The notes beneath the pieces were generated by a model. It was not told the origin of the DNA, searched no databases, and was given only the letters and a program-made list of their open reading frames with translations. A program made the position numbers and the translations under genes. A DNA stretch of 63,707 nt from an uncultured Archangium sp. (GTDB lineage Bacteria; Myxococcota; Myxococcia; Myxococcales; Myxococcaceae): positions 1 to 63,707 of the forward strand of contig CAIVGN010000171.1 in the NCBI GenBank assembly GCA_903905455.1. Reading direction: 5' to 3'. The first letter of the stretch is position 1. Each line of letters starts with the position of its first letter. Positions 60,835 through 63,707 of the stretch are shown piece after piece.

Positions 60835-60919
60835 GCAGCAGGCCGCGCCGCGCGCCTTGATCAAGGTCAAGGCTTGCGCGGTTGACGAGGGCCGGGGCAC
60901 CCGGAGTAGGCCCTGCCGG

Positions 60920-61816
60920 ATGTTCCGCTACTCCGCTGACCGTCTCCCGGTGCTCGTGTTGCTGGCCATCTCGGCCCTCGACTTCTCGGCGTACCTCTTC
61001 CTCGACAGCTGGTGGCTGCTGGCGGCGTACGCGGGGCTGAGCATGTACCCCAAGGCGTTCTCCTGCTCGTACAACCACCACCACCAGCACCTCTCGCTCT
61101 TCACCCGCTGGCTGCCGAACCGGCTCATCGAGTTCGTCTTCGCGCTGCAGACGGGCATCACCGGCAACACCTGGGTGCTGCACCACTCGCTGGGCCACCA
61201 CCTCAACTACCTCGACCAGGCGAAGGACGAGTCGCGGTGGATGCGGGACGACGGCTCGCGCATGGGCGAGTGGGAGTACGCCTTCAAGACGGCGCTCACC
61301 GCGTATCCGCGCGCCTGGCAAGTGGGCCAGCGCTACCCCCGGCAGCGTCGGGTGATGGCGGTGATGTCGGCGCTCACCGTGCTGCTGGTGGCGGGCCTCG
61401 TCGCCTACCGCCCGGTCGCGGGCTTCCTCCTCTTCGTGGTGACCCCGCTGTCGCTGGTGGTGGGTACGGCGCTGGCGACCTGGTACCACCACTCGGAGCG
61501 GCCGACGGACAGCCACTTCGTGGCCAGCAACAACATCCTGCAGAAGTTCTACAACGTGCTCACGCTGAACCTCGGGTACCACACCGCGCACCACTACAAG
61601 CCCGGGGTCCACTGGTCGCTGCTGCCGAAGCTGCACGCGGAGATCGAGGCCCGCATTCCCCTCGTGGCCTACGCCGCGCCGGGCATGCCCTGGAAGCTCT
61701 TCGGCGAATCCCCGCGCCCCCTCGCCGTGCCGCCGCCGGTCCCCGTCGCCGAGGTGACGAAGGAAGACACGCACGCGGAAGGCTTCGGCCTGGTCGGAGA
61801 GCCGTCGGGCATCTGA
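60920..61816 (+). CDS. Membrane fatty-acid desaturase
   Basis: This 298-aa protein starts at ATG 60920. Four membrane helices and three histidine boxes characteristic of membrane di-iron desaturases/hydroxylases are visible: NHHHQH, HHSLGHH and YHTAHHY. It is short for the family and may act on acyl lipids or other hydrophobic substrates. It lies 101 bases upstream of the caleosin-like gene and in the same direction, so both may act on the same lipid pathway. Confidence 0.87.
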   Translation: MFRYSADRLPVLVLLAISALDFSAYLFLDSWWLLAAYAGLSMYPKAFSCSYNHHHQHLSLFTRWLPNRLIEFVFALQTGITGNTWVLHHSLGHHLNYLDQAKDESRWMRDDGSRMGEWEYAFKTALTAYPRAWQVGQRYPRQRRVMAVMSALTVLLVAGLVAYRPVAGFLLFVVTPLSLVVGTALATWYHHSERPTDSHFVASNNILQKFYNVLTLNLGYHTAHHYKPGVHWSLLPKLHAEIEARIPLVAYAAPGMPWKLFGESPRPLAVPPPVPVAEVTKEDTHAEGFGLVGEPSGI

Positions 61817-61917
61817 GCCTCTCCCAGCTTCGAGAACCAGGTTCCCATTCACGGGAATGCGTCGGCAGGCAGCGCGGGCTACGGTAGCGGTTCCTCGCTT
61901 CCCGCCTCGGAGCTCCC

Positions 61918-62571
61918 CTGAGCAACTCGATCAAGCCGCCCCCCGGTTTCACCGGCGCCACGACCGCGCTGCAGCAGCACGTCTCCGCCTTCGACCCCAA
62001 CAAGACGGGGCTCGTCACCACCAAGACCACCGCCGAGGGCCTGCAGAAGATGGGCGTGTCGGCGGGCTGGTCGAAGTTCATCGCCACGGTGATCAACGGG
62101 GGCCTCGGGCCCGCGACGGGCGGCAACGCGTCGACCACCGTGGTGCCCACCATCACCCAGGCGCAGCACGAGGGCGACACCGGGGTGTTCGACCCGAAGG
62201 GCCAGTTCTCGCCGGACCGCTTGAACCAGGTCATGACGCGCTTCGACCGCAACCAGGACGGCGCGTTGTCGCTCGGCGAGATCCACCAGATGCAGTTCGC
62301 CAACGCCAAGACGGCCAAGGGCGCGGCCATCACCAAGCTGGAGTTCGGCCTGCTGCTCTCGATGTTCTCCGACACCACGGTGAAGGGGAAGAATGGCCAG
62401 GCCGAGCCCGCGCTCTCCAAGGCGCAGCTCACGAAGTTCTACGACGGCTCGCTGTTCCAGGACGCGCTGAAGACCGGCAACGTGAAGCTCAACGCCGGGC
62501 TGTTCTCGCGCGAGCTGGTCAACGCGGCTGGTTCGGCGGTGAAGGCCGCGGTGGGCTGGACGCCGAAGTGA
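61918..62571 (+). CDS. Caleosin-like (peroxygenase) EF-hand protein with probable CTG start
   Basis: This 217-aa protein aligns along its length with plant caleosins/peroxygenases as I recall them. LQQHVSAFD (18-26) matches the start of the EF-hand and its heme His (here H21). VINGGLGPAT matches the ...INLTLSYAT region. QHEGDTGVFDPKGQFSPDRL (second heme His, H84) matches KHGSD...YDNEGRF. LSLGE, EFGLLL and LSKAQLTKFYDGSLF match the C-terminal half. A second EF-hand loop is DRNQDGALSLGE (110-121). The oleosin-like proline knot is missing. No ATG/GTG/TTG lies between an in-frame TAG (61885) and the first part of the homology; CTG 61918 has GGAG 5 bases upstream. ATG 62050 would remove H21 and the first EF-hand. 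Confidence 0.82.
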   Translation: MSNSIKPPPGFTGATTALQQHVSAFDPNKTGLVTTKTTAEGLQKMGVSAGWSKFIATVINGGLGPATGGNASTTVVPTITQAQHEGDTGVFDPKGQFSPDRLNQVMTRFDRNQDGALSLGEIHQMQFANAKTAKGAAITKLEFGLLLSMFSDTTVKGKNGQAEPALSKAQLTKFYDGSLFQDALKTGNVKLNAGLFSRELVNAAGSAVKAAVGWTPK

Positions 62572-62665: not shown

Positions 62666-63707
62666 ATGGCCAGCAAGCGCACGCGCCCCCGGGCGACGAA
62701 GGCAGGAGACGTTCCCCCCGACTTGAGCCCTGCGGGCCTCGAGAACTTCACGGTGGAGCAGGCGAGCTCCGCGGCCGACGAGGTGAAGGCGAGCACCATT
62801 CGCGACGTGCTGACGGGCACCAGCCCCGAAGACGCGGTGCGCATCTTGCGCGACGTGCTCAGCCAGCAAGAGGGCCTCGACAAGCTCGCGCGCCGCGCCG
62901 CCGACAAGGAGCTCGCCGACAACTGGCAGCAGGGCGGCTACCCGTACAAGAACCTGCTCTCGCGCAAGAGCTACGAGCGGCAGAAGTACCGGCTCCAGGT
63001 CGAGCTGCTCAAGCTGCAGGCCTGGGCGAAGGAGACGCACCAGCGGATCATCGTGCTCTTCGAGGGGCGCGACGCCGCGGGCAAGGGCGGCACCATCCGG
63101 CGCTTCATGGAGCACCTCAACCCCCGCGGCGCGCGCGTGGTGGCGCTGGAGAAGCCGACCGAAGAGGAGCGCGGCCAGTGGTACTTCCAGCGCTACGTGG
63201 AGCACCTGCCGACGGCCGGCGAAATCGTGCTCTTCGACCGCAGCTGGTACAACCGCGCGGGCGTGGAGCGGGTGATGGGCTTCTGCACCGACGCCGAGTA
63301 CCAGGAGTTCATGCGCCAGGCGCCGGAGTTCGAGCGCATGCTGGTGCGGCAGGGCATTCACGTCTTCAAGTTCTGGTTCTCGGTGAGCCGCCGCGAGCAG
63401 GAGCGCCGCTTCCGCGAGCGCCAGATGCACCCGCTCAAGCAGTGGAAGCTCTCGCCCATCGACCTCGCCTCGCTCCACAAGTGGGACGACTACACGACCG
63501 CGAAGGAGGCGATGTTCTTCCACTCCGACACCTCGGACGCGCCGTGGATCGTGATCAAGAGCGACTGCAAGAAGAGGGCGCGGCTCAACGCCATGCGCTA
63601 CCTGCTGCACCGCCTCGACTACGAGAAGAAGGACGCCGAGCAGATCGGCCCGGTGGACCCGCTGCTCGTCGGCCGGGCGGCCGTCATCTTCGAGCGCGGC
63701 GAGCACA
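62666..63707 (+). CDS. ppk2: Polyphosphate kinase 2 family protein, partial (cut at window end)
   Basis: The frame opens at ATG 62666 and is uninterrupted to the window edge, about 347 codons. An N-terminal extension of about 90 residues precedes the PPK2 core. Seen are Walker A GRDAAGKGG (about 134-142), Walker B FDRSWYNRAGVE (about 190-201), the lid-type region SVSRREQERRFRERQ and SPIDLASLHKWDDYT. PPK2 enzymes use polyphosphate to phosphorylate nucleotides (NDP or NMP). The class cannot be decided from what is visible. Only the C-terminal tail seems missing. Confidence 0.92.
   Translation, partial: MASKRTRPRATKAGDVPPDLSPAGLENFTVEQASSAADEVKASTIRDVLTGTSPEDAVRILRDVLSQQEGLDKLARRAADKELADNWQQGGYPYKNLLSRKSYERQKYRLQVELLKLQAWAKETHQRIIVLFEGRDAAGKGGTIRRFMEHLNPRGARVVALEKPTEEERGQWYFQRYVEHLPTAGEIVLFDRSWYNRAGVERVMGFCTDAEYQEFMRQAPEFERMLVRQGIHVFKFWFSVSRREQERRFRERQMHPLKQWKLSPIDLASLHKWDDYTTAKEAMFFHSDTSDAPWIVIKSDCKKRARLNAMRYLLHRLDYEKKDAEQIGPVDPLLVGRAAVIFERGEH

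Follow-up and report, generated by a model that had tools for sequence, protein, structure and literature searches.

A putative soluble caleosin-type peroxygenase in an uncultured Archangium sp. and a possible link between caleosins and unspecific peroxygenases

Introduction

The described systems closest to the locus analyzed in this work are the plant caleosin CLO1/PXG1 of Arabidopsis (EC 1.11.2.3), the caleosin-like proteins of the myxobacterium Sorangium cellulosum, and the fungal unspecific peroxygenases (UPOs) and chloroperoxidase (PF01328, EC 1.11.2.1). In S. cellulosum, seven caleosin-like proteins with an EF-hand and both His residues were reported in 2018, and a gene transfer was suggested to explain their presence (PMC5957377); in addition, some Legionella carry caleosin domains (PMC7542358). 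Bacterial caleosins were therefore already known and are not new here. The use of heme by these small EF-hand proteins is unsettled, and no solved caleosin structure turned up in our sequence searches of the PDB, and a soluble, anchorless bacterial member would be convenient to study by crystallography and spectroscopy. Caleosins are not mentioned in the 2015 review of the heme peroxidase superfamilies, where the Stramenopiles are named as the sole non-fungal clade of heme-thiolate peroxygenases (PMC4420034). In the one open-access collection searched, we found no instance of caleosin being named together with chloroperoxidase, and a prior report elsewhere is possible.

Here we report the analysis of a stretch of 63,707 nucleotides from an uncultured Archangium sp. 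(contig CAIVGN010000171.1 of the assembly GCA_903905455.1; hereinafter, the window) harboring a putative caleosin-type peroxygenase gene. The encoded protein resembles CLO1/PXG1 in its whole-length homology, in the two His residues, in the helix-loop-helix core and in the C-terminal block of the YDGSLF type; it differs from the plant protein in that it is predicted to be soluble, lacks both the proline-knot anchor and the N-terminal H-domain, and keeps only the second EF-hand intact, the first being degenerate. As to the Sorangium proteins, they are also myxobacterial and are reported to possess an EF-hand and both His; however, they are described as seven in number and as carrying a lipid-binding domain (PMC5957377), whereas a single anchorless copy exists here, no second caleosin having been found in the window genome (G000).

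Results and Discussion

The gene and its start codon

The putative gene is located on the forward strand at positions 61918 to 62571 and encodes 217 amino acids followed by the stop codon; the frame and the coordinates given in the preliminary description are correct, and every residue block quoted there is present in the translation. Since no ATG, GTG or TTG occurs in this frame ahead of residue 45, the start was placed at the CTG of position 61918, which is likely to be a start codon of a rare type. This placement is supported by the presence of a GGAG, a likely ribosome-binding site, 5 nt upstream of the CTG on the same strand (positions 61909 to 61912), and by the comparison with the closest homologue (L003, 82% identical, belonging to another genus of the same family), which has a TTG at the position of the CTG, also preceded by a GGAG; moreover, the DNA similarity between the two loci starts at the CTG codon itself. 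The same comparison gave a dN/dS of 0.27, with differences falling mostly at third codon positions; the gene is real and under purifying selection. Its GC3 (98%) matches that of the neighbouring genes.

Family membership and distribution

The Pfam Caleosin profile (PF05042) matched residues 15-181 of the window protein over profile positions 3-167 of 170, with an E-value of 2.3e-25 and a score of 89.9 bits against a curated cut-off of 27 bits, whereas the best generic EF-hand model reached 20 bits, under its own cut-off. The caleosin-like nature proposed in the preliminary description is thus confirmed by a wide margin over generic EF-hand proteins, and the assignment to the caleosins is sound; judging from its sequence, the protein can be regarded as a bacterial, soluble form of an enzyme type that is already known. 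A generic calmodulin-like EF-hand sensor was rejected on the basis of the same scores and because calmodulin-like chains cover one lobe only of the predicted structure.

Caleosins were found in five of the 195 Myxococcota genomes, one of which has two copies, and in none of the five other genomes of the window genus (G001-G005); a tblastn search and a pattern scan of plasmids and viral contigs retrieved no caleosin relative. Such a patchy distribution, together with the transfer proposed for Sorangium (PMC5957377), might suggest that the gene was recently acquired from a plant or a fungus and has no settled role. Transfer was one of the two origins considered in the preliminary description, but in the form of a recent transfer from plants it finds no support in our data. 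Indeed, the window protein shares 30% identity with a provisional plant CLO1 sequence, a value no higher than the 27-33% shared with the myxobacterial caleosins other than L003; in addition, the composition is host-like, the dN/dS value speaks of selective constraint, and a sister gene 82% identical exists in another genus. Taken together, these data make a recent acquisition from eukaryotes very improbable. Contamination by eukaryotic DNA was discarded, since the neighbouring genes and the GC3 are bacterial and a second myxobacterial genome harbors the sister gene.

Conserved residues, EF-hands and the lack of an anchor

The alignment of the six bacterial caleosins with CLO1 revealed 16 invariant positions, which include His21, Gly31, His84, Asp87, Gly95 and Glu142. 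The CLO1 sequence used in the alignment is the provisional one; its second block agrees with the plant consensus NIHKCKHGSDS printed in PMC5957377, and it matches the bacterial caleosin profile with an E-value of 7e-25. The codons of the three residues discussed below lie on the forward strand at positions 61978 to 61980 (His21, a candidate proximal heme ligand), 62167 to 62169 (His84) and 62341 to 62343 (Glu142). The His pair pointed out in the preliminary description aligns with the plant pair and is intact in all six myxobacterial caleosins. In this respect, the presence of a bacterial caleosin with intact His residues is confirmed, but its notability is weakened by the earlier reports of such proteins in S. 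cellulosum and of caleosin domains in some Legionella.

The first, plant-type EF-hand loop (DPNKTGLVTTKT, positions 61993 to 62028, forward strand) appears degenerate from the alignment, having lost the Glu of position 12, which is a Thr; the second loop (DRNQDGALSLGE, positions 62245 to 62280, same strand) is canonical, as revealed by sequence, profile match and alignment, in agreement with the clear second EF-hand described previously. The state of the two loops varies within the family: the first is degenerate and the second intact in the window protein and in L003, the opposite holds for L002, both are intact in L007 and neither (by inspection) in the member from genome G091. A protein like L007, with both loops intact, may resemble the ancestor.

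The presence of a canonical EF-hand raises the possibility that the window protein is a Ca2+-binding protein with the caleosin fold, acting as a Ca2+ buffer or sensor without any enzyme activity, where the His pair would be kept for structural reasons. This idea is in agreement with the lack of conserved oxylipin partner genes: neither lipoxygenases nor proteins of the animal-heme-peroxidase/alpha-dioxygenase type were found in the window genome and, among the five caleosin genomes, the former occur in G187 only and the latter in G023 only. It is also in agreement with the existence of plant members lacking key residues and thought to be inactive (PMC5957377). However, His21, His84, Asp87 and Glu142 are invariant, whereas the EF-hands are variable to the point that the G091 member has neither of them intact and that L002 and the window protein keep different ones; this is the opposite of the conservation expected for a Ca2+ sensor, and renders a purely Ca2+-binding role unlikely.

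Concerning the membrane anchor, the peak hydropathy over 19 residues in the region between the two His is 0.91, versus 2.05 in the provisional CLO1 sequence; this bears out the absence of the proline-knot noticed in the preliminary description. The placement of the protein in the oil-body (lipid-droplet) subgroup of caleosins was therefore rejected, no lipid-binding hydrophobic segment being present.

Similarity of the predicted structure to UPOs

For the window protein, AlphaFold gave a confident model (pLDDT 83, pTM 0.80). When this model was compared with PDB chains, the first 24 ranks were all occupied by fungal UPOs, with 177-190 of the 217 residues aligned and Z values from 9.2 to 6.8; it should be kept in mind that, according to the alignment tool, Z values of 8-9 for mostly helical models may reflect a common arrangement only. 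EF-hand proteins aligned with one lobe of the model (60-80 residues) with a Z of about 6. The model of L007, which shares 34% identity with the window protein, was less confident (pLDDT 71); in its comparison, UPOs occupied ranks 1-9, while rank 13 went to chloroperoxidase. Foldseek alone, run against the PDB with the window model, found nothing beyond EF-hand proteins, which matched poorly and had low TM-scores. In SCOP, chloroperoxidase belongs to the EF-hand-like fold class, and this placement fits the likeness between caleosins and UPOs. The assignment of the window protein to the heme-thiolate peroxygenase class (PF01328) was nevertheless rejected, since no caleosin has a Cys at positions 13-18, which correspond to the proximal Cys of the Pro-Cys-Pro motif of that class.

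A bridge family between caleosins and UPOs

Because Z values of this kind can be due to arrangement only, sequence evidence was sought. A search of the Myxococcota with PF01328 gave weak matches in myxobacterial proteins that appeared collinear with caleosin. All five of them match PF01328 (best E=1.4e-8); searched against PDB sequences, they hit UPOs or chloroperoxidase, with a best E-value of 3.4e-6, plus one antibody chain at chance level (E=0.8). This group of PF01328-type proteins (L031-L052, e.g., L031:1321-2355:+), hereinafter the bridge family, was enlarged to 15 members, in which a Cys-Pro-x-Leu motif, a His and a Glu are invariant; the family, which has matches with E<1e-3 in 17 of the 195 Myxococcota genomes, is apparently undescribed so far.

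When the profile of the 15 members was compared using hhalign, it matched the caleosins with an E-value of 1.1e-13 (probability 98%; E=6.3e-12 with the provisional plant sequence added) and the UPOs with an E-value of 4.6e-11 (probability 97%), versus 0.0019 (probability 14%) for calmodulin/troponin C. With the version including five members, an E-value of 1.2e-8 to caleosins remained after masking both EF loops; none of 200 column shuffles scored higher than 22, whereas the real alignment scored 76-79, and reversed-profile controls gave E-values above 0.5. The provisional CLO1 sequence alone did not match this five-member version (E=0.75). Since the direct comparison of caleosin and UPO profiles is not significant (E=0.16), the link between the two families is transitive and passes through the bridge family.

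The alignments place caleosin His84, Asp87, Gly95, Gly135 and Glu142 on bridge His152, Asp155, Gly162, Gly211 and Glu218 (trimmed numbering). In the UPOs, the column matching His84 holds the His of the E-H-D motif and the one matching Glu142 holds the catalytic Glu; the two residues form the distal acid-base pair of these enzymes. In MroUPO, the pair consists of His86 and Glu157, to which the activation of the heme is attributed, and Cys17 is the proximal ligand (PMC9137552). His21 falls on the helix carrying the proximal Cys of UPOs (Cys+3/+4 according to the structural ranges, Cys+6 to +8 according to sequence); given this location and the lack of a Cys at that site in caleosins, His21 is the foremost candidate to take the place of the Cys as ligand. 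As a whole, the bridge proteins are collinear with caleosin and share with it the His, Asp and Glu and several Gly/Leu positions, differing in the Cys-Pro-x-Leu heme-thiolate motif and in a longer C-terminus. Caleosins and UPOs have in common the distal His/Glu positions and possibly the fold, as predicted over about 185 residues; unlike UPOs, caleosins have no proximal Cys-Pro motif, and the similarity is detectable only via the bridge family.

On this basis, we lean modestly towards the idea that caleosins (plant, fungal and bacterial) belong to the heme-thiolate peroxygenase superfamily as a branch with His ligation, which retains the distal His-Glu pair, has no proximal Cys and has either kept or regained working EF-hands, with intermediates preserved in myxobacteria. 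According to a different interpretation, the window protein is a caleosin peroxygenase whose heme is bound by both His, in line with the proposal made for plants, and the likeness to UPOs is a mere matter of EF-hand-like arrangement. The lack of significance of the direct comparison, the modest Z values for helical folds and the EF-hand-like fold of the UPO/chloroperoxidase proteins themselves would all agree with this interpretation. Nevertheless, the matches of the bridge family to caleosins and to UPOs both have E<1e-10, that to calmodulin/troponin C being far weaker, its match to caleosins survives the masking of both EF loops, and the aligned conserved columns include the catalytic His and Glu; hence, we regard a likeness by arrangement alone as rather doubtful. 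The view, shared by the literature and the preliminary description, that the two His are heme ligands differs from our alignments, which place His84 on the distal acid-base His of UPOs.

If the link to the UPOs is true, it names the catalytic residues of caleosins (His84 and Glu142), leads to the reinterpretation of one supposed heme ligand, joins two enzyme families having the same chemistry and explains the use of heme by caleosins. We consider this link, marginally probable as it is, the part of the finding worth following.

Two observations concern the bridge family itself. Several of its members have a second conserved motif, ACPHMGG, near the C-terminus. Moreover, four of the five congeners of the window organism have a bridge gene and no caleosin, while the window genome has a caleosin and no bridge gene; it is possible, although the numbers are small, that the two genes replace each other within the genus. 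The N-terminus of the window caleosin (LSNSIKPPP, positions 61918 to 61944) is nearly the same peptide as that of bridge-family members such as L031 (MSNTIKPK), and this shared peptide is possibly a sorting or binding tag.

A proposed mechanism

We consider it probable that the window protein is a soluble, most likely cytosolic, caleosin-type heme peroxygenase with a UPO-like heme site, in which His21 is proximal and His84/Glu142 are distal, and which uses organic hydroperoxides. Heme b would be accommodated between the two lobes of an EF-hand-like fold presumably shared with the fungal UPOs, with His21, on the helix bearing the UPO proximal Cys, as the likely proximal ligand. In Aspergillus, the His85 mutant of AfPXG lost its peroxygenase activity; this residue is taken here as the equivalent of His21 since it precedes the membrane segment 126-140 (PMC5808235). 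The hydroperoxide would bind to the open face of the heme, where His84 and Glu142 would shift a proton and cleave the O-O bond. A substrate with an unsaturated bond or a sulfur would then receive the oxygen and become an epoxide, an alcohol or a sulfoxide. If the substrate were a lipid, an unsaturated lipid would be epoxidised or hydroxylated with the oxygen of an organic hydroperoxide. Ca2+ bound to the second EF-hand would probably stabilise the pocket or the lobe, a task that might be covered in plants by the first EF-hand instead.

Gene neighbourhood and possible partners

A fatty acid desaturase gene (PF00487, positions 60857 to 61816) lies 101 bp upstream of the caleosin gene on the same, forward strand, and might encode a possible partner; it is one of the eleven desaturase-type matches of the window genome. 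The downstream neighbour, coding for a polyphosphate kinase 2 (PPK2, positions 62666 to 63706, forward strand, running off the window), is probably unrelated to the caleosin system. No conserved neighbourhood emerged: neither gene recurs near any of the remaining caleosin genes or near those of the bridge family, and at the sister locus L003 the caleosin gene is flanked by a fasciclin gene upstream and an acyl-CoA synthetase gene downstream. The PUFA synthase marker PfaD was discarded as a partner because, although present in the window genome, it scores over the cut-off in 47 of the 195 Myxococcota genomes and is uninformative.

In plants, the enzyme acting next after the peroxygenase is an epoxide hydrolase. 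The caleosin gene of genome G091 (L006:1072-1920:-), which encodes a distant member of the family, runs in frame into an N-terminal piece of an epoxide hydrolase, whose best PDB match is EphB (E=7.8e-10), and then breaks off; its sequence hints that a fusion of peroxygenase and epoxide hydrolase may have left a remnant here, rather than at a working fusion.

Other relatives

The caleosin L005 (L005:1429-2067:+) apparently starts with a signal peptide, so that at least this relative may be exported, and carries an insert (TWSACSYWWCPSYTS) ahead of the last helix; the same genome also harbors the second caleosin L007 and a lipoxygenase. Lastly, the window model matched three uncharacterised giant-virus proteins (from Edafosvirus, Dasosvirus and Harvfovirus; BFVD entries A0A3G4ZVQ5, A0A3G4ZRE2 and A0A3G5A5K6) with a probability of 1.00 and TM values of 0.54-0.65, and these, on the strength of the predicted structures, are probably viral caleosins.
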